A stretch of DNA of 56,144 nt, taken from the NCBI GenBank assembly GCA_024684675.1, contig JAIKWO010000107.1:1-56144 (forward strand). Reading direction: 5' to 3'. The translations under genes were made by a program, and so were the position numbers. Of this stretch, positions 13,473 through 27,485 are shown one piece after another. The DNA is from Lachnospiraceae bacterium (lineage in GTDB: Bacteria > Bacillota > Clostridia > Lachnospirales > Lachnospiraceae). Each line of letters begins with the position of its first letter. Positions within the stretch are counted from its first letter, which is position 1. The notes below the pieces were generated by a model. It was not told where the DNA came from. It ran no database searches and saw nothing but the letters and a program-made list of their open reading frames with translations.

Positions 13473-14759
13473 CTATCGGAATACAAACTCGGAGGAGCCA
13501 AGGATCAGAATATCTCCGCGGTGCAGGATCTTCTTTTCATGTGGTTCGATCAGGAAGTCATTGATGAACGTTCCATTTACGGAACAGAGGTCTTCGAGAA
13601 ATATTTCGTTGTTTTCCATGAGAAGACGTGCATGAACACCGCTCACGCCGCGATCTTTAATGGCAAGATGAACGCGGCTTTTATCCTTTCCGATCACATA
13701 GGGATATTTTTCAATATAATGTGTGATCTCTTGTCCTTTCCTAATCTCTGCCAGCGAATGATTCTTATGAAACTCTGCCTTATCCACATAGACGGTATCG
13801 GTATCGTCCTCCGGATCAGCCGGCTCTTCGCTTCGTGTGTCAGCATCGTCACACTCTGGTTGAAGTGACTGCCCTTCATCATCCCACAAAAAATCTTCCT
13901 CAGAATCAACGGAATCGGAACTGCTTCTCAATCGGTAAAGCATTAGACTTGCTCCACCGATCGCACAGATGATCATGCTCCCGAGCCAGAAAAACCTTTC
14001 CATTCGAGTATACAAATACCATATTCCCGTAATCTTATATGCCGCGAACACAAAAACGCAAAGAGCAAGCAAAACACTGCCTGCTTCTCTTGCTTTATCC
14101 CTAAAAAAGACTTTAACAACATCAAACGTTTTTAAATGCTTTTCTTCTTTCTCTTCTTCCGTTAAATACCATTCCTTCTCCAACGCAGGTAACTCTTCCG
14201 TTTTTACCGGAATCTCGACCTCTTCTTTTTCCAGATAATGATCCAGAAGATCCAGCGAGAGTAGTTGCGCCTCCGTTTTATCGTAAAAGTCATATGCGAT
14301 CTGCGTTGCCTTTTCGTCTGATGGATCACATCGCTCGATCAGAAACTCCGCAAGTGGTCGCATAGAATGTATCTCTCCAGAAAAATCATACAGCATTTTC
14401 CAATCCGACTTCACATGATCATAGAAGATATATGACGGTGCAAAAACGATCCGGTCACTTTCAAGAAGATATTTTTCTGTCTCACGAAGAAGCTTTGCAA
14501 TATGAAACATAAGTTTGCGCACATCTTCCACCTTTAATTCACAAGCAGAAAAAATACTCTCCATACTCTGCATCCCGGTTATATCATAATGAACTTCCAT
14601 AACGCCATCTACCGCAATAAGAGACGGTTTGATCAGCCCGTCAATCGTATTTTGAAGAACGGTTCTTCCAAAATAATTCTCTGTCTCGTCTGGTAAGATT
14701 CCTTTTAAGATCGCGTATGTATTTCTGTAATTCCGTTTAAACTGTATATTATTCATCAT
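13473..14759 (-). CDS. DUF6382-like / FHA domain membrane protein (Tad cluster associated)
   Basis: C-terminal FHA 'YVIGKDKSRVHLAIKDRGVSGVHARLLMENNEIFLEDLCSVNGTFIN'; two central TMs; N-terminal region like DUF6382. Confidence 0.85.
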   Translation of the reverse strand: MMNNIQFKRNYRNTYAILKGILPDETENYFGRTVLQNTIDGLIKPSLIAVDGVMEVHYDITGMQSMESIFSACELKVEDVRKLMFHIAKLLRETEKYLLESDRIVFAPSYIFYDHVKSDWKMLYDFSGEIHSMRPLAEFLIERCDPSDEKATQIAYDFYDKTEAQLLSLDLLDHYLEKEEVEIPVKTEELPALEKEWYLTEEEKEEKHLKTFDVVKVFFRDKAREAGSVLLALCVFVFAAYKITGIWYLYTRMERFFWLGSMIICAIGGASLMLYRLRSSSDSVDSEEDFLWDDEGQSLQPECDDADTRSEEPADPEDDTDTVYVDKAEFHKNHSLAEIRKGQEITHYIEKYPYVIGKDKSRVHLAIKDRGVSGVHARLLMENNEIFLEDLCSVNGTFINDFLIEPHEKKILHRGDILILGSSEFVFR

Positions 14760-14764
14760 AGCTC

Positions 14765-15193
14765 CTATTTCAGCCCGCTTTTGATCTTTTCCAATTGGCG
14801 ACAGTTTCGAATAAAATTAACCGGCCGGTAGCCATCGACTCGTTTCTTCTGTTCGGCGCCCCAGTTACTGTTATAAAATGCTGACCCCGGTCCTGTCAGA
14901 GAAAGTTGTGTCTCCACTTCTGTCTCTTCATCTGTGACCGTCTGCTTCATCGTAACGGATCCGATCACAATCCGATCCTTGACATCATTCTCATATTTCA
15001 TTTCTGCTATGCCTGATTTTTCGTTCAAATCTCCAATGTGTCTCTCTGCCTTCAAGGCCGTCGTATAACTTCCCTGTGTCAAAAGTGCCTGATCATATAC
15101 AAAGAATGAAACATACAGGATATTCCAAATCAGGAAGATCGCAAATGGCAGGATAAGTGAAGCCTCAATCGTAACACTCGCTTTTACATCCAT
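14765..15193 (-). CDS. TadE-like pseudopilin
   Basis: N-terminus MDVKA|SVTIEASLILPFAIFLIWNI with Glu at +5 and a hydrophobic helix. Confidence 0.75.
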   Translation of the reverse strand: MDVKASVTIEASLILPFAIFLIWNILYVSFFVYDQALLTQGSYTTALKAERHIGDLNEKSGIAEMKYENDVKDRIVIGSVTMKQTVTDEETEVETQLSLTGPGSAFYNSNWGAEQKKRVDGYRPVNFIRNCRQLEKIKSGLK

Positions 15194-15612
15194 CCGCTTA
15201 CCATCCTCACAAGATATGCCCCTGTTATAAACGGTATAAACGGGAGGGATGCTCGTTTCTCACATTTTTTCAGTATAAGAAGTCCTATCGACAGGATCGT
15301 GCAGAAAAAAAGTGACAAAAGCAGAATCCCCATCAGCTCCATAATCGATGTATGCATCCCGACAAGCAAAAAGATAAGACCATCCCCGTAACCAATCTGC
15401 TCATTGGTAACATACGCAACAAACAATATGATCAGTCCCGGGATCATCGAATACAGTCTTTCCTTCTCCATACACCCGCCAATGAGTGCAAGAAGAAAAA
15501 GGATCAACGCAATTGCCGCGACCTCCCACACGGAGATTCTTCTTTTTCTGATATCCGTATATGATGCTTTTATCAGATATAGCATTATACCTAAGCTGCA
15601 CACCTGCTGCAT
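15184..15612 (-). CDS. A24-family prepilin peptidase (second copy in cluster)
   Basis: 'ASYTDIRKRRIS' and 'IGYGDGLIFLLVG' catalytic Asp motifs; multi-TM. Confidence 0.8.
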   Translation of the reverse strand: MQQVCSLGIMLYLIKASYTDIRKRRISVWEVAAIALILFLLALIGGCMEKERLYSMIPGLIILFVAYVTNEQIGYGDGLIFLLVGMHTSIMELMGILLLSLFFCTILSIGLLILKKCEKRASLPFIPFITGAYLVRMVSGWM

Positions 15613-16562
15613 GGTCCTCGTCCTCCAACTTCCGATAACGGTACTTTATAAATTGATCTCTTTAATCCTTTACAGTTCAGAGAGGCATGATAACGATCTC
15701 CCTGCGTTGTAATATAAACAACCGTGCCTATCATCTTCCCGCAGTATTCGCATGGATAGTATTTTCCACCATCTTCATTTCTGTGCGATCCGACTGTCGC
15801 TTTCTGAACAGGCTCAATGGAAAGCTGAAGATATGTACAGTCATAATCCATATGATAGACTGTTCCGCTTTCTGTAATATAAACACTAGGTTCGTCCGTT
15901 TCCGTATAACCGCCGATGCCACAAGGGATATAACCTGTCCATGGCTTTACGCGACAATGATTTCCCATTAGCATACCGGGAAACCCAAACCAACCGATCA
16001 GCGGTTTTACATAATAGGAAACTGAAATATCAAGCACATCCTGCCCGTTTCGTTTCTGCGGATCTTTACTAACAACAAGCCCGCTGCTGCCACCGACGAT
16101 CATGGAATCATCCAGATTCTTTTTTCCAATATACGAAACGATATCACTGCGGATCGCTACATCTGATGCCAGCACACCCACTGCATTATCCGGTTCAACT
16201 CCCGCACTGTCTGCCAGATACTCCCTTATTGCCCACTTACTTACCGATTGATGCAGTGCTGCTTCAATATTGCTATGTAACTGTATAAGTGAGATCACGC
16301 AGATCAATTGCATACAAAATACCAGGAACATCGGGAAGACGATCGAACACTCGACCGTGATACTTCCTCTGGCAGAAAGAAACGGAGACATTCCCTTTTC
16401 TTCATGAAAAAGAGATGATAACCGATTGCTTTGAAAACCGATTTGATTGATATGAATTGTTTTAGGTGATTTGACAAAAGCTAGGGGATAGCTTTTGCTT
16501 AGGAGATATGGATAAAGTCGTTCGCTTCTTCTTCGTTCGATATCATTCCAAAAAGGGAACAT
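15591..16562 (-). CDS. TadE-like pseudopilin with two C-terminal tandem Cys/His cassettes
   Basis: 'LSARG|SITVECSIVFPMFLVFCMQLICVISLIQ'; C-terminal two repeats VYITxxGxxYHxxxxCxxLxxSI...GxxPCxxC; SD AAAGGAGG upstream of ATG at 16562; alternative start at 16391. Confidence 0.72.
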   Translation of the reverse strand: MFPFWNDIERRRSERLYPYLLSKSYPLAFVKSPKTIHINQIGFQSNRLSSLFHEEKGMSPFLSARGSITVECSIVFPMFLVFCMQLICVISLIQLHSNIEAALHQSVSKWAIREYLADSAGVEPDNAVGVLASDVAIRSDIVSYIGKKNLDDSMIVGGSSGLVVSKDPQKRNGQDVLDISVSYYVKPLIGWFGFPGMLMGNHCRVKPWTGYIPCGIGGYTETDEPSVYITESGTVYHMDYDCTYLQLSIEPVQKATVGSHRNEDGGKYYPCEYCGKMIGTVVYITTQGDRYHASLNCKGLKRSIYKVPLSEVGGRGPCSRCAA

Positions 16563-16582: not shown

Positions 16583-17995
16583 TTATTTTTGATAACCTAC
16601 CAGTCGTTCAATCCGAATATGGTGACCCCATCCGGATTTCACCGTGATCACCGCCTCCAGATCATGAATGCAGCGATCAATGCGAAACAGGTCGTTCCCG
16701 CTTATGCAACGGACATCCATTTCCATAATGTCCAAAAAACGCATGTTTCTCTCCTCTTTGTTTACAAAGAGCATCAGTATTTGTAAATAATCGCGATATG
16801 TCAGTCCGGATGCATTGTCACCACCAGGCGTTTTCATTCGAAGACCATTAAGAAGACCAAGCTTCCATTGCTCATCAGTTTTCATCAGCGCAACCTTCCC
16901 GCCTGACAGCAGAATGCGAATATCATTGACGGCTTCTGAATACGACCACGCTAAAATGATCGACCACTTTATAATCTTTCCGAGTTCAGGCAATAGACAG
17001 ACCGCTGCTACCGTATCCGCTAGTGCCTCTGCTTCTGCACATCTGCGCGTATCACAGGATAAGTACAGAAAATTTGCAGTTTCACGAATAAGCAGTAGTC
17101 TAGTCACCACACTATCCAAGTTGTCCTTGTCACTGTCTTTTCCACAAAGTACATATTCGAGTTCATAACCCAACTCGGAATTATTCTTTCGCGTTACATA
17201 GTTCCCACATCGCTCGACTAGATACCGTTGAAAGATCAGATCTTCCGTTTTCGTTGCTGCGGTTTCACCATGAAGAAAACCATCGCCCTCCTCGTAATTC
17301 CGAGATGAAACATATTCCGATCCGGCAATGCTCTTAGCAGATAAAGCATCCGACCCTGTCACCTTGGTAAGTACAATGCCGGGATCCATCTGATCAAAAA
17401 CTGCGTCTGCCGGATTATCAATCGAAAAATGTTTGAATTTCTTTTTGCCCTTCCTTCGATAGCGGGCGATCCGCTCTTTGTTTTTTGCTTTCTCTTCCTC
17501 GAACCTGTTTCCAAGGAGTCCTTTTTGCTCGATCACGGATCTCTCATTTGAAAAAAAGGGGATCTCATCCAATTCGTATAGATCAAGCATGTAATCGACA
17601 GCATACCTCTCGACTACATCACCCAGCATATCCGATGCTTTGCAGGTTTCTGTGATCACAACCGATTCACATGATGCGTTATAAAAATCCTTAGCAATGC
17701 GTCCGGCACCTTCTCCCATTCCAAGATTATCATCCAGATAATCTGTCAGATGTCCTTCAAGCGGCGTATTGGTTTCATATGAAGAGCCATATGCACTGTC
17801 AATAAAAAACAGATCATACTGCTTTAAAAGTTCTCGGTTGTACTCCGCTAAAACAGACTGAAGTGCCATATCGGCGGCGCATTCTGTCATAAAGCGTACA
17901 CCGTTTGTCCTTGCTGCTTCGATCACCTGAAACAATAAGCCCACCATCACTGTCATCATGAGTGATAAGAATACCGTGATCTCGCCTTTTTTCAT
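16583..17995 (-). CDS. DUF5702-like Tad-cluster protein
   Basis: N-terminus MKKGEITVFLSLMMTVMVGLLFQVIEAARTNGVRFMTECAADMALQSVLAEYN pseudopilin-like; position in Tad operon. Confidence 0.75.
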   Translation of the reverse strand: MKKGEITVFLSLMMTVMVGLLFQVIEAARTNGVRFMTECAADMALQSVLAEYNRELLKQYDLFFIDSAYGSSYETNTPLEGHLTDYLDDNLGMGEGAGRIAKDFYNASCESVVITETCKASDMLGDVVERYAVDYMLDLYELDEIPFFSNERSVIEQKGLLGNRFEEEKAKNKERIARYRRKGKKKFKHFSIDNPADAVFDQMDPGIVLTKVTGSDALSAKSIAGSEYVSSRNYEEGDGFLHGETAATKTEDLIFQRYLVERCGNYVTRKNNSELGYELEYVLCGKDSDKDNLDSVVTRLLLIRETANFLYLSCDTRRCAEAEALADTVAAVCLLPELGKIIKWSIILAWSYSEAVNDIRILLSGGKVALMKTDEQWKLGLLNGLRMKTPGGDNASGLTYRDYLQILMLFVNKEERNMRFLDIMEMDVRCISGNDLFRIDRCIHDLEAVITVKSGWGHHIRIERLVGYQK

Positions 17996-18166
17996 TTAAT
18001 AAACGCTTCCGGTCTTGGACACGATATGCGAAAAAATATCATTTACAAGGCTTGTCAGCTGGTTCTTAAAGATAATGACCAGACTGATGAGAACCACCAG
18101 GATCAGGATCATCTCAACTGTTCCGATACCATCTTCCTCTTTTAAAAATCTTCTTAATGTTTTCAT
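17996..18166 (-). CDS. Flp1-family type IVb pilin
   Basis: My translation: MKTLRRFLKEEDG|IGTVEMILILVVLISLVIIFKNQLTSLVNDIFSHIVSKTGSVY* (56 aa); below ORF-track cutoff; G|xxxxE cleavage motif. Confidence 0.88.
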   Translation of the reverse strand: MKTLRRFLKEEDGIGTVEMILILVVLISLVIIFKNQLTSLVNDIFSHIVSKTGSVY

Positions 18167-18176
18167 CTTTTCCTCC

Positions 18177-19436
18177 TTACATTTGAAATGTATGAAATGC
18201 CGGAACGATAATGATGACCATCACGATCACCAGCATCATGATCATAGGAACAAGAAGCTTGGTTCCTGCTTCCTCACCCATCTTTTTTGCCCGGCTTTTT
18301 CGCTCCTTTAACGCAGTCTGCACTTCTTCCTGAAGCGCGCGCTTTAATCCGTTTGCACCGCTTTTTGTATATTGTATGATGAACGAAGTCCATTTCTTGT
18401 ATTCTCCGCTTCTCGTTCTTTCACCCAAATGAAACAATGCATTTGATTCCGAAATGCCACTTTCCATCTCGCGACATGCAAGCCGCATTTCTCTATATGC
18501 TGCATTCTTTCCGGCAGTGACAAAATCTCCCTCTTTGGCAATTTTTGCAAATGCGCTTTTAACTGTCATTCCGGCTCCGATCAGCATTGCCATTTTTGAA
18601 ACGATCTTCGGATATTCACGCATAAGTTGCTGCATTCGCTTTTCTTCTTCTTTCTTCTCACGATCTCTCTTTGCACAGACCAGACCTCCGGATAATGCAA
18701 TCGTCAAAAAGAAAACGGCCATATACGGAACCGATCGCTCTTCATAAAACGAAAGTTGCCTGTTTTCAAAAGTCGAAGGCAATATGAAAGAACCTTCTCC
18801 TGCCTTTAATTTCTGTAGTTTAATCAGATCTTGTTCCAATCTTGCGAAAAACGCCTCATTTTGATCTTTTGGACATGCTCTGACATAGAACTGTTCCTCC
18901 GCTTCAAATCCGACACTCTCATCCCGGACCACGGCGCGAATCCTGACAGGAATCCCACTTTCGGGAAGAGCCGTCCCCAGCCTTCCGTCATAACCAATCA
19001 CATCCGTGTTGTCTGTCTGCCATGCAATCTCAAAAGGATATCGATCAAGATTGTCAGGGAAATGAAGATCTTCCGTCACATGATCTGCTAGCGTATTCTC
19101 TCCCATCATTTCTTTCTGCAGCACTTCTATGAATTCCGGATAGATCTTTTTTACATCGTCGTAACAATAAGACTTTGGAAAAAGTTTCAAATTCACTGAT
19201 CGATCCTCAGATTCGGAAGAAACATTCAAAACCATATTTTTTTCTTTTCCGAATCGATCATCTCTTGCAACCTCTTCGATCGGAATACGCATCATTGCAA
19301 ACAGGCTGTAAATATACAATCCTAAGGCGATAAGGCTCCCGATGAGTAAGATTTTGGATGCTTCCGGATATTCCTTTTTTCGGGCAAGTCGATGTATGGC
19401 ATACCCTGCCCCCGCCAAAAATAGTATTGCTCCCAT
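18177..19436 (-). CDS. tadC: Type II secretion F-domain protein (TadC-like)
   Basis: 'REYPKIVSKMAMLIGAGMTVKSAFAKIA' T2SSF domain, TM helices. Confidence 0.8.
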   Translation of the reverse strand: MGAILFLAGAGYAIHRLARKKEYPEASKILLIGSLIALGLYIYSLFAMMRIPIEEVARDDRFGKEKNMVLNVSSESEDRSVNLKLFPKSYCYDDVKKIYPEFIEVLQKEMMGENTLADHVTEDLHFPDNLDRYPFEIAWQTDNTDVIGYDGRLGTALPESGIPVRIRAVVRDESVGFEAEEQFYVRACPKDQNEAFFARLEQDLIKLQKLKAGEGSFILPSTFENRQLSFYEERSVPYMAVFFLTIALSGGLVCAKRDREKKEEEKRMQQLMREYPKIVSKMAMLIGAGMTVKSAFAKIAKEGDFVTAGKNAAYREMRLACREMESGISESNALFHLGERTRSGEYKKWTSFIIQYTKSGANGLKRALQEEVQTALKERKSRAKKMGEEAGTKLLVPMIMMLVIVMVIIIVPAFHTFQM

Positions 19437-19445
19437 ATTTCTCCT

Positions 19446-20216
19446 TTACGCTTCGATCGTCACAAGACGATATGACATCCATACAGAAAATCCATAGAGG
19501 CCCAAACAGATTGTCATCACTAAGATCCCTAAAGGATTGTGATACAACGGATCAAAATATCCGGGTGAAGTGATCCGAATATAGAAGATCATCCCAAACG
19601 GGATTAGACACATGATCCTCTGTTCTGCCTTTCTTCCATGCAGCATTGTTTGGATCTCTCTCTCCGTATCGATCTTCATCAAAATGATCTCTGCCGTTGC
19701 CAAGATCATCTCACACATATTTCCACCGCTTCGCTTGGCTGCCGCAAAAACTTCTGAAAAGTCTCGGATGTTTTCTGTCCCACTTCGTTTTCCCAGATCG
19801 AACAAAATCCGTTCGATCGTGACATTATTCCCGATAAGTCTTTCCATATTCTCTGCTTCTCTTCGAATATCCGATTCTTTTCCGTATAGATTCGCAAGTT
19901 CATGTCCACCCCTGATAAATGCATTCTCCACGGCATATCCTGCCTGCAGTTTGGATGAAACTATTAAAATCCACTCTTTGAACTCTGTTTCCAACCTGTC
20001 ACATCGTTTTTTCTTCAACACCTTTTTTCGATATCTGCAGAACAGATAACCGCATACAATTCCCGGAATCAATACATAAAGTGAATCATAAAAGAAAAAC
20101 AGAATCACAGATGCACCCAGCGTTCCCATCAGATAGTATTTAATCCATTCCGTTTTGGAAAAAGAGTAAGTCCGATAATCCTGCTGCCTCGATCTTTTCT
20201 CTTGAGAAAAGGTCAT
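19446..20216 (-). CDS. tadB: Type II secretion F-domain protein (TadB-like)
   Basis: 'EFKEWILIVSSKLQAGYAVENAFIRGGHELANLYG', 'EVFAAAKRSGGNMCEMILATAEII'; start assumed at MTFSQEKR; longer ORF reaches 20375. Confidence 0.8.
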   Translation of the reverse strand: MTFSQEKRSRQQDYRTYSFSKTEWIKYYLMGTLGASVILFFFYDSLYVLIPGIVCGYLFCRYRKKVLKKKRCDRLETEFKEWILIVSSKLQAGYAVENAFIRGGHELANLYGKESDIRREAENMERLIGNNVTIERILFDLGKRSGTENIRDFSEVFAAAKRSGGNMCEMILATAEIILMKIDTEREIQTMLHGRKAEQRIMCLIPFGMIFYIRITSPGYFDPLYHNPLGILVMTICLGLYGFSVWMSYRLVTIEA

Positions 20217-21378
20217 TCTTTTTAACCAGCTTCCCTTCGACGTTCCCTTTTCCTCTCCCGCTGCTTTCAAATTTATAAAGCGTTTGTGTTTCAATTTCAT
20301 CGCCGGATATTCCCAAAACCTCCACGATCTCCAATACTTTTCTTGTTTTGTCCCTAAGTCTTCCCAGATGCACAATCAGATCAATCCCGGATGCGATCTG
20401 CCTTCGAATCGCCGAGATCGGAAGATCCATTCCCATGAGTACCATTGTCTCCAATCGATACAACATATCTCGCGCACTGTTTGCGTGTCCTGTCGATAGC
20501 GATCCGTCATGCCCCGTATTCATTGCTTGCAAAAGATCTACCGCCTCAGCCCCTCTGACCTCACCGACAATAATGCGGTCCGGTCTCATACGAAGGGAAC
20601 TTTTGATCAGATCACGGATCGTTATCTCATTGCAATTCTCTGCCGTTCTTGCACGAGTTTCTAATCTGACGAGATTCGGCGCATTCTGAATCTGCAACTC
20701 CGCGCTGTCTTCGATGGTAATGATTCTCTCCTCTTTCGGAACAAAATCCGAGAGTGCATTTAAAAAGGTTGTCTTTCCGGATCCGGTTCCGCCACTGATC
20801 ATAATGTTATAACCGGCATGAACCATGATCTTTAACCAGGAAGCGACATCTTCCGTGATCGACCCCAAAGCGATCAGATTCTCGATCCGAATCGGTTTGT
20901 CAGGAAATCGACGAATTGTCAGGATCGGACCGTTTAAAGCGATCGGCGGTAAGACAACATTGACACGCGATCCGTTTTCGAGTCTGGCGTCTGCAATCGG
21001 AGAAGCTTCATTCACAGTTCGATTGCATTTTCCGACGATCTGCTGAATCACATCTTCCAACTTCTCAACAGACGAGAAGCTGTTTTCCCATTCTTTCAAC
21101 CGCCCGTTTTTTTCAATAAAGATCGCTTTCGGGCCATTGATCATGATCTCCGTGATCTCTTTGTCTTCCAATAGTTCCTGCAAAATATCCAATTTGCGGA
21201 TCGAATAAAACAATTCTTTTCCCAGCTGTTGCTTCTCTTCTAGGCTTAGATAATGCTCTCTTCCATATTCAATCAGAGATTCTCCGATCAGCTGCCTGAC
21301 CGAGATCTCATCATTCTCCACTGAATAGTCCATCTTGGCATAGATCAGAGACAGTACATCTTCTTTTTTAGAATTCAT
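20140..21378 (-). CDS. tadA: Pilus assembly ATPase TadA/CpaF
   Basis: Walker A 'ISGGTGSGKTTFLNALSDF', 'RIITIEDSAELQI', 'MRPDRIIVGEVRGAEAVDLLQAMNTGHDGSLSTGHANS'. Confidence 0.95.
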   Translation of the reverse strand: MNSKKEDVLSLIYAKMDYSVENDEISVRQLIGESLIEYGREHYLSLEEKQQLGKELFYSIRKLDILQELLEDKEITEIMINGPKAIFIEKNGRLKEWENSFSSVEKLEDVIQQIVGKCNRTVNEASPIADARLENGSRVNVVLPPIALNGPILTIRRFPDKPIRIENLIALGSITEDVASWLKIMVHAGYNIMISGGTGSGKTTFLNALSDFVPKEERIITIEDSAELQIQNAPNLVRLETRARTAENCNEITIRDLIKSSLRMRPDRIIVGEVRGAEAVDLLQAMNTGHDGSLSTGHANSARDMLYRLETMVLMGMDLPISAIRRQIASGIDLIVHLGRLRDKTRKVLEIVEVLGISGDEIETQTLYKFESSGRGKGNVEGKLVKKNDLFSREKIEAAGLSDLLFFQNGMD

Positions 21379-22360
21379 ACAGCTCCTTTCGGATCAGATT
21401 CTTTGCAAAATCCGCCAATTCGCCGTACACAAGCTGCTCTGGGGCAAACGGAAGATCTCTGATCAAAGACAGGTCACATTGTTTCGTCTTTTGAAGGACA
21501 TCTTCATAGTCCGCTCTTTCCAAAAGCAATTTGTATTGCTCCATTTTTGCCATTGCCATCCCATCGTCTTTCACAATCGTAAAGACTTTTCTACAGCACC
21601 TTAAAATATCCGGTAAGCCCTGGATATTATCCGAAAGATCAAGCAAAATATATTCATAAGCAGAATACTTTTCTATCTCTTCAATCATCATCATCCATTG
21701 CTCTTTTGTAATCCGGTTGATATCCATATAGGAAAATGCCGGTGGAATGAAATCCATGTTCCCGACGCTTTGCGTCATCGCCTGCAGCTTATAAAACAGC
21801 GCCTCCTTCGCATTCGTAATATAATAGATTAAATCCGTGATATCACACATAAACTCTTTTCCGAACCGAATGTTCAGTCCGGAGAAACTTTCAAAATTGA
21901 GATAGAGTACTTTATGCTTTTTCGCCAGCATCTGTCCCATCGACAGTGCCAGTGAAGTTTGAAGTCCTCTTTTGATCGGGGAATAAAATCCTATGAGGTT
22001 TAATCCCTTTTCTCTGATTACCGGTCTTTCTTTTTCTTGTATCTCAAGCCGGCCCATGACTTCTTTCATGACCGTCTCACATGATTGATATTTGTAAACA
22101 CCTCCGTTTGGTTCATTTAAAGACTCGCGATCCGGTTCCAGGATCACAATCTGTGCGCGCATATTCTCTTCCAGTTGTTTTGAATATTCCTCTTTTGCAA
22201 TCAGAAGAATATCGATCTTGTCTTTTGTTTCGTTTTGTTCTAAGTTTTCCCTCGATGTGAATACAGCGACATCAAAAGGAAATTCCTTTGCCACGTACTC
22301 ACAGAATTTTGATGCATATACCGCCTCTCTATCGCAGACGGCCAGCAGTTTTTTCCTCAA
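21368..22360 (-). CDS. TadZ/CpaE-like protein with degenerate P-loop
   Basis: MinD/ParA-like order; 'IGFYSPIKRGLQTSLALSMGQMLAKKHKVLYLNFE'; start taken as TTG with AAAGGAGGT SD overlapping upstream TGA stop; ORF extends to 22405. Confidence 0.72.
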   Translation of the reverse strand: MRKKLLAVCDREAVYASKFCEYVAKEFPFDVAVFTSRENLEQNETKDKIDILLIAKEEYSKQLEENMRAQIVILEPDRESLNEPNGGVYKYQSCETVMKEVMGRLEIQEKERPVIREKGLNLIGFYSPIKRGLQTSLALSMGQMLAKKHKVLYLNFESFSGLNIRFGKEFMCDITDLIYYITNAKEALFYKLQAMTQSVGNMDFIPPAFSYMDINRITKEQWMMMIEEIEKYSAYEYILLDLSDNIQGLPDILRCCRKVFTIVKDDGMAMAKMEQYKLLLERADYEDVLQKTKQCDLSLIRDLPFAPEQLVYGELADFAKNLIRKELYEF

Positions 22361-22782
22361 ATTACCTCCTTTAGGCATACTAATAGCGCGGCTACCATAA
22401 AACACGGCGCCATCGGTATTCTAGTATTCTTCATATTCTTTTTTGCTATGATCATTTGTGTTAGGGGAAGTAGGGATAGAAAAATCCCTAGTATGAAAAT
22501 CTGAAACACTTTTTCTAAGGAGAGATAGATTGCTATGACTGAGATGAGTTTGACGTCTCCGGCGCCCAGACTTTTTACAATAAACAGCGGAAGCAAGATC
22601 ATAATCACTAACGCTGCCCGTATCATTGATGCAGTAACGTAAGACATGCCTTGTCGTTCATAACAAAAAATCAGTCCTGCCACTGCGGCTATTAAGTTAT
22701 GTGTGTTGGGGATTTTGTGTGTACGGTAATCGTACAGGGACACAATGCTTAAGAACAAAAAAAGACTTACAATGTTACTCAC
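22357..22782 (-). CDS. A24-family prepilin peptidase (first copy)
   Basis: 'SLYDYRTHKIPNTHN' and 'SLGAGDVKLISVIAIYL' motifs. Confidence 0.88.
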   Translation of the reverse strand: MSNIVSLFLFLSIVSLYDYRTHKIPNTHNLIAAVAGLIFCYERQGMSYVTASMIRAALVIMILLPLFIVKSLGAGDVKLISVIAIYLSLEKVFQIFILGIFLSLLPLTQMIIAKKNMKNTRIPMAPCFMVAALLVCLKEVI

Positions 22783-22901: not shown

Positions 22902-23369
22902 TTATGCAAAATAACCACGGTTCACTACAGAATAGCAGTTCTCATTCAAGGAACTTCTGCCGTAAGTAAGCCCCGCATACACGGTCTGCGCATTCTCCAT
23001 GACGGATCCGGAGTGATCCTGACCGCTGATCTCACTGTATGCATCATGCAACTTTCCGACGATCGAACGTACGCCTGCAAGCGGTTCTTTCACGTGATGA
23101 GAGACTGCTGCCGTCAGCGTCTTTCCGATAAAAACATACAGACCGAATAACATATGGGACAACTCAAAATGATAATCGAGCGAATTCATAAGTTCATTCA
23201 TGCATTCTCTGGTCTTCTTGATGCTTTCTTTAAATGCTTCACGATCTTCAAATGAGTCTTCCGCATCATCCAGATACGCCAGTACCATTTCATACAGGAT
23301 GACGATCATCTCTGTTTTATTGGCCTGCGTGATGCGCATCGTAAAATCTTTCTTGCGTTCGTTTGTCAT
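22902..23369 (-). CDS. fliS: Flagellar export chaperone FliS
   Basis: 'TQANKTEMIVILYEMVLAYLDDAEDSF' FliS-like; immediately downstream of flagellin. Confidence 0.78.
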   Translation of the reverse strand: MTNERKKDFTMRITQANKTEMIVILYEMVLAYLDDAEDSFEDREAFKESIKKTRECMNELMNSLDYHFELSHMLFGLYVFIGKTLTAAVSHHVKEPLAGVRSIVGKLHDAYSEISGQDHSGSVMENAQTVYAGLTYGRSSLNENCYSVVNRGYFA

Positions 23370-23383
23370 ATAATGCTCCTAAA

Positions 23384-24586
23384 TTACTGTAATAACTGAA
23401 GTACCTGCTGCGGTCTCTGGTTTGCCTGTGCCAGCATGGATGTGCCTGCCTGGCTGAGTACCTGCAGTGTCGTATAATCTGTCATCTCTTCCGCCATATC
23501 TACATCCATGATCCGGGAGTAAGCTGCCGTCATATTTTCGGATGTGATATTCAGACTGGAAACCGTATGTTCCAGGCGGTTCTCATATGCACCGAGTCTG
23601 GATCTTGCTGCCGATACAAGTGAAAGCGCTTCGTCAACAAGTTTAATGCCCGCTGTGGCAGTTTCCTCGGTTGTCAGATCAAGATCACGAATGCCGAGAG
23701 TTTTTGTAGAGATAGAAGGGATCCTTACTTCCAAGATCTGATCCTCGTTCGCACCGATCTGCAGTGTCATCGCACCGATTCCGGTTGCTTCCACTTCATA
23801 TTTGATCGTCTGAAGACCGCCAACAGCATCATCATATTGTTTGATCAGATTTGCTTTGTCATAAACAAGCGTCATGGAAAAACTGTCATCGCCGACATAT
23901 TTTACTGTAAAATCACCGATCGAGTCATGATCCGTAAACGTAACCTCATTCTCCGGATAAGCAATGATTCCCTGTGCAAATTTGTAATTGGGATCATAAG
24001 TTGTTGGGTCACTTGGATCATTCTTGTATGAATCTTTAAGACTGCTTACCTTATATCCATCGGTTGTCTTTTCAATCTGAAGTTCCATCTTGTAGAAACC
24101 AACCGGCGTCTCATCCGTATAAGTTTCTACCTTGACCGCAAGATTGTTCGTATAGCCTTTGAGATCAAATCCGCCACTTAGAAGAGAAGTCCCGTTAAAA
24201 TCGGTGTTCTCCGCAATACGGTTGATTTCTGCCTGGAGCTGCTCCACTTCTTCCTGGATTGCTAATCTGTCGCCATCGGAATTTGTTCCGTTTGCGGACT
24301 GGATTGCCAGTTCATTGAGACGTTGCACCATTTCCTGGATTTCGGTCAGTGCACCTTCTGCTGTCTCAATAACGGAAATGCCATCGCTTGCGCTCTGGTT
24401 TGCGCGCTTTAAACCACGAAGCTGCGCATGCATTTTTTTCGAGATCGCCATTCCGGACGGATTATCTTTTGCTTTATTGATCTTATAGCCGGAAGATAAT
24501 CTTCCCATGGAAACCGAAAGGCTGTTATCTGTTCTGTTCAGACAGTCATTGGCACGGATTGCCGTCAAATTGTAATTAACGTTCAT
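23384..24586 (-). CDS. Flagellin
   Basis: N-terminal D0/D1 'LTAIRANDCLNRTDNSLSVSMGRLSSGYKINKAKDNPSGMAIS', C-terminal 'LGAYENRLEHTVSSLNITSENMTAAYSRIMDVDMAEEMTDYTTLQVLSQAGTSMLAQANQRPQQVLQLLQ'; start MNVNYN. Confidence 0.96.
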   Translation of the reverse strand: MNVNYNLTAIRANDCLNRTDNSLSVSMGRLSSGYKINKAKDNPSGMAISKKMHAQLRGLKRANQSASDGISVIETAEGALTEIQEMVQRLNELAIQSANGTNSDGDRLAIQEEVEQLQAEINRIAENTDFNGTSLLSGGFDLKGYTNNLAVKVETYTDETPVGFYKMELQIEKTTDGYKVSSLKDSYKNDPSDPTTYDPNYKFAQGIIAYPENEVTFTDHDSIGDFTVKYVGDDSFSMTLVYDKANLIKQYDDAVGGLQTIKYEVEATGIGAMTLQIGANEDQILEVRIPSISTKTLGIRDLDLTTEETATAGIKLVDEALSLVSAARSRLGAYENRLEHTVSSLNITSENMTAAYSRIMDVDMAEEMTDYTTLQVLSQAGTSMLAQANQRPQQVLQLLQ

Positions 24587-24587
24587 G

Positions 24588-27485
24588 TCAGTCCCTTTCC
24601 GCATTTTCTCTAATCGCCGTGACCAGAGCTTTTGCTGCTTTGTATAATTGTACCGTCGAGACCGACGCGGCATCCGTGCTTGTCGTATCTGTTCGTCTTA
24701 TGGTCAGTTCTGTATTGATTCCCGTTTGCATCTCCTTGACCGCGAGATTCAACTGACTGAGTTTTGTTGTAATGGATTCGCCGATGGCTTCGAGCTTTTC
24801 GCTCCCTTCTTCCTTCGATGCGATCAGAAGTCCGGTCACGCCGTCTTCTCCAGCCAGCAGTTTGAAGGAGCACTTTCCGAGAGACTCTGTTTCCATGAAG
24901 CCGTCAACCCTTCCGTTATTTATATCGGAGTGTTTTATGGTTAAATGAAGAGCGACACAGCTATTTTCCGTCATAACCGGAATATCATATTCACGGCTCT
25001 CTGCCCGCTTTGCCGCAAAACTAAGCTGTTTGTAGCAATAAGCAAGCTGTCTGATATCGTCAGATGTCAGCGTATGATCCGCCTCCATGACCTTCTCAAG
25101 TGCCGCAGTCTCCTTTTTGGCAAAATCCTGATATGCCTGAAGTGCTTCCTCTTCACCGATCATGGATTCATCAAGCAAGTGCAGGTTCTCTTTCAGATCC
25201 TCGCTTCCCGTAAAGCGACGGATCCTTCTTCCGAGAACGCCGCCGTCAGCAAGATATTCCGATGCCGCAAGGATATTTTCTGCCGTTACCGGCATTTCCA
25301 TCTCTTCCAAAATCTTTTCAACAGATGCATCACTACTGTATTCCCGATAAATAGCTACTCGCTCTTTTTCATATTCGTCGAAATTGCGAAGTCTTTCGTA
25401 TTCTTCTGCTGTTGCCTGAAAATGCTGCGCATCAAAAGCGGTCTTGATCTGGCTGTCAATCGATGTGCCGCGGAAGGTAACTTCTTTGATTCCGCCGTTT
25501 TGATCATCTATTCGCCAATCGATCCCGCGTGCCTTACGTGAACGAAGTGCGGATAGGAGATTATCTACCGTCAGTTCCGCTCCCTGGTTTACAAGGCTCC
25601 CGATCACTGCCCCATCTGATTTTTCGATCTGACGAAGCAGTCTGTAGATACCGATATAGCTCTCTTTTTCTTCGGGTGTAATCTCTCCCTTGTGTTCGAG
25701 CTTATACAAAAACTTGCTGTATTTCTCAGCATCTTTTTCACGGTCATTCTCTCGATCCGACAGTTCGTTATGTAGCTGCATAACCGTCATTTCAAGCGGA
25801 TTCTTGCCGTCCCGGATCAGTCCAAGTGTTGCAGCGGGCGTCATTTTTTCAATCGTACTACGAAGCAGACTGTCCGCTTCGGTTACGACAGCGATGGAAT
25901 CCTCCGAGATCTCCATGCGATTATAGCCAAGGATCCTGACAGCACGACAATTCTCTTCCGTCGGTTCCATTCCCATTTCTATGAGAAGATCCTGCGCATT
26001 GCGAAAAGCCGTTTTGATCGAATCGCCAAGATCTGCTCGCGGCGTGGTCATAAAGGTTTCATACTGCGTATTCGCTTCTCTTAATACGCGAAGTCTGTTT
26101 TCGCCTTCTTCCCGAATGGCGGGAAGCGTCATCTCACCGTTTGCATCAGCCAGATCTTTTACCGTTTCAATCGGCATATGCGGAATGAAATGAAGAATCT
26201 CAGCTGTTCTTATAAGCTGCTCTTTTCTTTCAGTGATAACCGATTCGTCCTGCGCATCGTATAAAACGGCACTTTGCTCCCTGTCCGCTTCTACCAGAAG
26301 GTCAACCAGTTTTTCCATCTCGGTTGTTTCGATCTTATACCCACTCTTTAATAGAACACGATTTGCTTGAATTGTCATTTGCAGACGCACTTCTTCGAGC
26401 ACACGTCTTGCATGGATATTCTGACGGGACGGCATCTTCTCTCCGCAGTCGATCGCCTGTTGAGCTTCTGACATTCTGGCTACGGAAAGTGTGGAGTGCT
26501 CTTCTGCCGTAAGATCTGCTGCCTCAGGTGTCAGTTCCTGAACGACTGCATAGACCTCTGCAGCCTGCTGCCATGCGGTTTCTGTTTTCCCAAGGATCGC
26601 GTCTTTTGCCTGCTTCCCGTCTGCGATTGCGACCATAACAGATTTTATGATCAGCGCTTCATCCATCGGAAGCTTGATCTCGTTAAGTGCAAGCTTTGTC
26701 TGCATCGTCTCTTCTGTTAAGGGGATCTCTTTGCGAACAAGATCTTCCGCAGCTTTTATGGTTTCTTCATCTTTAATGATGCCTGTTCTATCTATGATCT
26801 CGTCAATCTGCGCTTTCATGTCAGCTGGATCGATCTGCATCGATGGCTCCATATCGATCGGCATACTGCTGTGCTGCGCAAAATAAAGATTCTCAATCGT
26901 GGGCTGCTGCCCTTTTTCGATCATCATATCTTTTGTTGCATCCGAAAGCGGTTCGATCTCCTGTGCCATCTTGATCGCCGCTGTTGCCTCCTGTGCGATG
27001 GGCACCGTAAGCACGACACCTGTTTCTTCCGCCGATTTGATCATCTCATTCGCAAGGTTCTCGGATCCTGTGATTTTTGTCAGAGTTTCTTTATCAATCG
27101 TATCGGTATATCCGGGGATATTGACGCCTGCCTCGATCATTTTCGCCTTGATCTCGTCAACAACCGTAACGGCAACATCTACCGGCGTATTACCCGGCTG
27201 ATACCCTTCTTCCTGCAGTTTGGCAAAATCCGCATCTGACATACATCCGGACATAACGGCCATATAGTTCTTGGTCTGCTGCACATTTTTCCCTGCCAGG
27301 GATTTCTGCACATCATCCTTTGTCATGCCCTGCTGCGTATAGGTAAGACCTTCCCGCTTCTTTTCCGCATGCTCTACCGTAAATGCACTTTGGCCGCCAA
27401 CTTTTTTCAAGGATTCTTCCTTAGCTGCGGCCTTTGTGTTTAAATCTGTTTGATTGATATATGATTCGTTAAATGTAATCCTCAT
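24588..27485 (-). CDS. DUF6240-like large protein coupled to flagellin
   Basis: 965 aa from MRITFNESYINQ; degenerate G-x-PT-x-EN repeats; stop lies 1 nt before the flagellin ATG. Confidence 0.72.
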   Translation of the reverse strand: MRITFNESYINQTDLNTKAAAKEESLKKVGGQSAFTVEHAEKKREGLTYTQQGMTKDDVQKSLAGKNVQQTKNYMAVMSGCMSDADFAKLQEEGYQPGNTPVDVAVTVVDEIKAKMIEAGVNIPGYTDTIDKETLTKITGSENLANEMIKSAEETGVVLTVPIAQEATAAIKMAQEIEPLSDATKDMMIEKGQQPTIENLYFAQHSSMPIDMEPSMQIDPADMKAQIDEIIDRTGIIKDEETIKAAEDLVRKEIPLTEETMQTKLALNEIKLPMDEALIIKSVMVAIADGKQAKDAILGKTETAWQQAAEVYAVVQELTPEAADLTAEEHSTLSVARMSEAQQAIDCGEKMPSRQNIHARRVLEEVRLQMTIQANRVLLKSGYKIETTEMEKLVDLLVEADREQSAVLYDAQDESVITERKEQLIRTAEILHFIPHMPIETVKDLADANGEMTLPAIREEGENRLRVLREANTQYETFMTTPRADLGDSIKTAFRNAQDLLIEMGMEPTEENCRAVRILGYNRMEISEDSIAVVTEADSLLRSTIEKMTPAATLGLIRDGKNPLEMTVMQLHNELSDRENDREKDAEKYSKFLYKLEHKGEITPEEKESYIGIYRLLRQIEKSDGAVIGSLVNQGAELTVDNLLSALRSRKARGIDWRIDDQNGGIKEVTFRGTSIDSQIKTAFDAQHFQATAEEYERLRNFDEYEKERVAIYREYSSDASVEKILEEMEMPVTAENILAASEYLADGGVLGRRIRRFTGSEDLKENLHLLDESMIGEEEALQAYQDFAKKETAALEKVMEADHTLTSDDIRQLAYCYKQLSFAAKRAESREYDIPVMTENSCVALHLTIKHSDINNGRVDGFMETESLGKCSFKLLAGEDGVTGLLIASKEEGSEKLEAIGESITTKLSQLNLAVKEMQTGINTELTIRRTDTTSTDAASVSTVQLYKAAKALVTAIRENAERD

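Follow-up and report, generated by a model that had tools for sequence, protein, structure and literature searches.

What does a pair of Cys/His cassettes do at the C-terminus of a pilin? The question is raised by a gene in the window, the whole 56,144-nucleotide stretch of Lachnospiraceae DNA analysed here. The open reading frame (ORF) at 15591..16562 (minus strand) translates into a TadE-like minor pilin of 323 amino acids with two C-terminal Cys/His cassettes. The segment of interest, 15591-15884 (minus strand), corresponds to residues 227-323 and the stop codon, the residues being the last 97 codons of the ORF. The reading that we consider reasonably likely is a predicted Zn(Cys3His)2 cassette head on a Tad/Flp minor pilin.

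A class III prepilin signal, G66|S-I-T-V-E71, together with a hydrophobic helix, is located at 16294..16367 (minus strand); the motif is shared with the aligned orthologues, and E71 is kept in 124 of 125 distinct sequences. Beyond G66|SITVE71 and the hydrophobic helix, the protein continues with about 110 residues of stem and a largely acidic linker before the two cassettes. A good ribosome site (SD aaaggagg) lies upstream of the ATG at 16562, and an internal ATG at 16391, nearer to the prepilin motif, is an alternative start. The TadE model PF07811 matches the window protein weakly (13 bits; Pfam curated cut-off, 22.9). PF07811 is matched by 29 of 36 orthologues at E ≤ 1 (best, 2e-7), and its cut-off is exceeded by several cassette-less homologues.

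The gene is embedded in a complete tad/flp operon, all on the minus strand. The operon begins with a candidate A24-type prepilin peptidase (TadV-like; 22357..22782), which has a GAGDVK motif and matches NCBIfam PrePilPeptEppA at E 0.058 only. It is followed by a TadZ/CpaE-like protein (21368..22405), assigned from operon position, a weak BcsQ-type match, and matches to the syntenic TadZ proteins of two other loci (L214 and L216). Next come the TadA ATPase (20140..21378; T2SSE, 1.1e-58; TadA TIGR03819, 8e-84), TadB (19446..20375; T2SSF, 1.7e-4, and synteny), TadC (18177..19436; T2SSF, 3e-12), and a 56-aa Flp major pilin (17996..18166) that matches the Flp pilins of syntenic loci. A DUF5702 protein (16583..17995; 9.4e-80, and synteny) immediately precedes the cassette gene, an arrangement found in the operons inspected. 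Downstream are an A24 prepilin peptidase that overlaps the 3' end of the cassette gene (15184..15612; 5.2e-9), a second TadE/F-like pseudopilin (14765..15193; TadE, 0.0045), and a DUF6382-FHA protein (13473..14759; 6.6e-35 and 3.9e-15). The presence of the prepilin signal and of TadA, TadB, TadC, and Flp in the same operon upholds the first-pass annotation, which had called the protein a TadE-like pseudopilin of a Tad cluster.

Several further features of the locus were observed. A24-type peptidase genes, one of them the candidate at 22357-22782 and the other at 15184-15612 (minus strand), stand at both ends of the operon, and the 56-aa Flp pilin between TadC and DUF5702 falls below the size at which ORFs are usually cut off. 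Directly before the tad operon, at 22902-24673 (minus strand), lie two genes read from their translations alone as flagellin and FliS-like. The closest match was in a GenBank record named 'Bacteriophage sp.' (MT835706); for this match a phage origin was rejected, as what stands there is a bacterial tad operon. In that operon (MT835706.1, 13524-25817), an IS607-like insertion with a serine recombinase and TnpB separates the cassette gene from the prepilin peptidase.

Cassette 1 (15738..15884, minus strand) contributes H237, C242, C271, and C274, and cassette 2 (15594..15719, minus strand) contributes H292, C297, C318, and C321. The two copies had been read from the sequence as aligned repeats; the sequence is exactly as quoted at the time, and the copies are homologous. 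Local alignment of cassette 1 with cassette 2 of the window protein gave a score of 62, which none of 5000 shuffles attained (mean 20.7, sd 4.3, maximum 52), and a profile-profile comparison of the two cassettes over 35 orthologues gave E 9.4e-16. A chance repeat is ruled out by these two results. Cassette 1 has an 8-residue insertion (RNxxGGKYY) ahead of its CxxC that is absent from cassette 2. Poor conservation of the Cys/His residues would have spoken against a metal site; all eight are unchanged in every distinct orthologue (125/125), these coming mostly from different genera, and each was present in at least 38 of the first 39 orthologues. Among the positions tested, only G210 equals the ligands in invariance (125/125). 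Because the two His residues are as invariant as the six Cys residues, the pattern argues for metal and against plain disulfides.

Direct searches of Pfam, NCBIfam, and PDB sequences with the window protein or with the cassettes alone returned eukaryotic zinc-finger noise and no relevant cassette match, and using the TadE cassettes to scan viral contigs brought up no relative. The cassette was identified through intermediates, using a DNA pattern for YHxxxC...GYxPCxxC that was run on viral contigs. This pattern yielded 117 distinct cassettes, and in 106 of 129 viral-contig ORFs the cassette lies within 10 residues of the C-terminus. The single cassettes from viral contigs fall into two types. 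The profile of type 1 (VYITKTGxKYHRxGCxYLxKSKIxISLxxAxxxGYxPCxxCxP) matches the cassettes of the window family at E 2e-12 (cassette 1) and 2e-14 (cassette 2), and matches the profile of type 2, the Ada-like type, at E 1e-21. When the two types were aligned together, PF02805 was matched at E ≤ 1 by 42 of the 43 members (best, 3e-11), and the resulting profile finds the solved N-Ada structures 1adn, 1u8b, 1zgw, and 1wpk at 1-3e-6.

In the DNA-repair protein Ada, one zinc is coordinated by residues 38, 42, 69, and 72, of which Cys38 is also the methyl acceptor. The profile alignment to N-Ada places the cassette His on Cys38, the Cys on Cys42, and the CxxC on Cys69 and Cys72, so that the four ligand positions occur in Ada order, ending in CxxC, in 125 of 125 sequences. 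The window cassettes themselves score no Pfam match, and the intermediate sequences do match PF02805. The reactive, methyl-accepting Cys38 is absent, every sequence having His there. Ada-type methyl transfer is ruled out because the acceptor position is occupied by His, and with this constant His the site is expected to hold a structural zinc of the Cys3His kind.

Structural models were built for the window protein, one relative, and the viral-contig cassettes. An AlphaFold2 model of the tandem (45 sequences) had a pLDDT of 65, with about 80 over cassette 2 and about 55 over a poorly modelled cassette 1. Among 350,542 chains compared with the tandem model by Foldseek, the four Ada entries took ranks 1, 3, 4, and 10, and with the model of cassette 2 (pLDDT 81.6) an Ada entry came first (TM 0.54 by query length); the E-values of 2.2-7.3 are each non-significant alone, and the weight of these searches rests on the repeated ranking of Ada. 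Judged by the linked profiles through which it was reached, the cassette is a relative of the Ada zinc domain PF02805. The earlier guess of an Ada-like four-ligand site is thus supported, by PF02805 and N-Ada through these profiles and by a Foldseek ranking led by Ada at non-significant E-values.

A search for TadE together with this module across genomes had been proposed. With roughly one genome sampled per genus of the family, the combination turned up in 149 of 150 genomes and 148 of 149 genera; the assignment of these genomes to Lachnospiraceae rests on one named close relative. The remaining genome (G016) is the only one of the 150 with no match to the cassette TadE. The gene is usually present in one copy per genome, as it is in the genome of the window, which is 83% complete. 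A scan of genome contigs gave one relative, from a Lachnospiraceae metagenome-assembled genome, at 89% identity. An oddity of a single lineage is ruled out by this distribution together with the invariance of the ligands in 125 of 125 sequences. The pseudopilin had been described as unusual, and that description did not hold: the gene is nearly universal in the family, and the cassettes are a near-universal family trait with an Ada-like zinc module that lacks a Pfam or NCBIfam model, rather than an isolated curiosity.

Outside this family, the same protein ends differently. In about a dozen other clostridial families, the orthologous TadE ends in PF21111, a CDI EC869-like restriction-endonuclease domain, and not in cassettes. 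The domain scores 59.8 bits on a TadE orthologue (cut-off, 27), and the PF21111-type gene occupies the same operon position (loci L057, L059, L060, L061, L063, and L335-L362), beside DUF5702 where inspected. In a class-wide sample, 28 of 30 PF21111 ORFs match the TadE stem profile and none of the 30 contains cassettes; conversely, PF21111 was found in none of 13 members of the cassette family. These sequences show clostridial TadE to end in a slot whose domain can be exchanged. Five additional loci (L067-L069, L071, and L072) encode TadE orthologues whose C-terminal domain has no Pfam match in those scanned and shows the LIVIIPE...YAxxxxI pattern of the PF21111 versions.

The single-cassette proteins provide a second view of the module. 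Among 71 of them, 16 are SNase/thermonuclease-like and 13 are ComEC/Rec2-type MBL proteins, so that about 40% act on nucleic acids; others carry wall or surface modules (SH3, choline-binding, and Cu_amine_oxidN1 domains) beside the cassette. The suggestion that Ada-like modules sit at the C-termini of other secreted proteins was therefore correct, the carriers being thermonucleases, ComEC-type MBL proteins, and others. One protein (L224; G037:C11:21536) consists of a signal peptide, a ComEC-type MBL domain, and one cassette at the end. Thermonucleases ending in one cassette are common in viral contigs. The NCBIfam model 'sunset' (NF051437) matches 7 of the 71 single cassettes and is not among the matches of the TadE family; no paper on NF051437 was found. 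The Fusobacterium phage FNU4_51 encodes a secreted protein with one cassette (L073:2426-2638; annotation, 'Metal binding domain of Ada') that is without the last Cys; it looks frameshifted, as the cassette match continues into the next frame.

In class III pilins, the N-terminal helix assembles into the pilus. For this reason, and because TadE/F/G proteins probably form the pilus tip, leaving their C-terminal domains exposed (PMC12075869), the cassette head is probably displayed outside the cell. The prepilin peptidase would likely cleave after G66, and the N-terminal helix would then likely pack into the pilus, probably into its tip complex. Each cassette would likely fold round one structural zinc through its His, its Cys, and its CxxC, and the pair would make a rigid extracellular head.

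The step from this head to a ligand is weaker: that it binds nucleic acid is a tentative proposal, to which we give somewhat less than an even chance. Several observations suggest nucleic acid: secreted thermonucleases and ComEC-type MBL proteins carry single cassettes, the related N-Ada domain works on DNA, a CDI nuclease-type domain fills the orthologous slot in other Clostridia, and the genome of the window has ComEC and ComEA with no ComGA/PilB detected, as in Micrococcus luteus. In M. luteus, tad genes are essential for transformation, and Flp pili are the transformation pili (PMC4322843). The genus of the window has ComEC and ComEA; a search for a ComGA/PilB-size match in this genus found none, and only a PilT-size match was obtained, a lone ATPase at G000:C15:16055-16852. 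The proposal is held at this level because ComEC and ComEA occur nearly everywhere in the sampled genomes, so that their presence does not discriminate, because cassette 1 of the window protein is not basic, and because wall and surface partners (Cu_amine_oxidN1, SH3, and others) exist and were counted against it, as was the 83% completeness of the window's genome. DNA binding by cassette 1 is not obvious, as its net charge is -3 in the window protein and the family mean is only weakly positive. The fuller version, in which a tandem Ada-type zinc head captures DNA in nearly all of the family, the Tad pilus serves as a DNA-uptake or extracellular-DNA-binding pilus, and sister lineages put a nuclease-like CDI domain into the same slot, making an exchangeable nucleic-acid-directed tip, is doubtful.

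A ligand of another kind is possible, if somewhat unlikely: the tandem zinc cassettes may bind a conserved non-nucleic partner, such as a cell wall polymer, mucin, or glycan, as the head of an ordinary pilus-tip adhesin. Tad pilus tips are formed by TadEFG minor pilins with variable C-terminal domains (PMC12075869), and the pairing of cassettes with SH3, choline-binding, and Cu_amine_oxidN1 modules fits such a role. However, the cassettes are more conserved than the whole protein (mean column identity across the family, 43% and 24%, respectively), unlike a fast-changing receptor adhesin, and the nucleic-acid enzymes among the single-cassette proteins also point away from it. Rather unlikely as well is a structural zinc plug with no ligand of its own, which would cap and stabilise the exported C-terminus or a tip complex shared with DUF5702 and the second TadE. 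Such a plug would agree with the invariance of the ligands, the conservation of fold residues, the usual single copy per genome, and the adjoining DUF5702 gene in the loci inspected, yet a plug needs neither duplication nor replaceability by a CDI nuclease-like domain.

The first-pass annotation had also offered a redox sensor or a metal scavenger, and a thiol/disulfide switch belongs to the same group; we regard these as improbable. Eight invariant Cys/His residues and CxxC motifs on a probably extracellular domain would suit them, but a disulfide pair needs no His, and each site has one His as constant as its three Cys residues; moreover, the homology is to a structural zinc domain, the reactive Cys of Ada is replaced by His, and the operon contains no metal-transport or thiol-redox gene. 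About as improbable is a degenerate or active toxin/effector slot, delivered or displayed by the pilus against competitors like the PF21111 version, for although at least 28 loci from other families have PF21111 (CDI toxin, EC869-like) on the same gene in the same place in the operon and a Tad system kills prey in Myxococcus (PMC12075869), no enzymatic motif was recognised in the cassettes with Pfam or NCBIfam, no variable alleles and no immunity-like gene beside the cassette gene were seen, and the extreme conservation is unlike that of polymorphic toxins.

The literature searches made turned up no paper on the cassettes and nothing specific on Lachnospiraceae Tad pili. The cassettes are without a Pfam or NCBIfam model despite the near-universality of the gene in the sampled genera (149/150 genomes), and the predicted Zn(Cys3His)2 head offers a single clean target for learning what the Tad pili of this family hold on to. 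If the head does bind DNA, natural transformation or the use of extracellular DNA in these bacteria would be directly testable.

Compared with known systems, the cassettes share with N-Ada of Escherichia coli (PF02805) four ligands in the same order and the G-x-x-PCxxC motif. They differ in having His at position 38, one extra residue between the His and the Cys, and a score under the Pfam cut-off for the window copies; in addition, they are duplicated, C-terminal, and probably extracellular, without the helix-turn-helix or the methyltransferase domain. In Bacillota, Fusobacteria, and phages, the cassettes found singly at the C-termini of secreted thermonucleases and ComEC/Rec2-type MBL proteins have the same VYIT..G..YH...C..L...G(Y)xPCxxC pattern; most stand at the very end of the protein, and a hydrophobic segment often precedes them. 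They are present in one copy, on enzymes and not on a pilin, with H-x3-C, whereas the TadE cassettes are present in two copies with H-x4-C. TadE proteins with PF21111 (CDI_toxin_EC869_like; L057, L060, and L063) have the same stem and operon position but carry a restriction-endonuclease-like domain in place of the cassettes of this family, the two never occurring together (0/30). The Kil Tips of Myxococcus, which are TadE/TadG-type tips (PMC12075869), resemble the window protein in their class III prepilin signal, tad locus, extra C-terminal domain, neighbouring prepilin peptidase, and second pseudopilin; the C-terminal domain here, in contrast, is a putative zinc cassette pair kept family-wide and not a variable domain.
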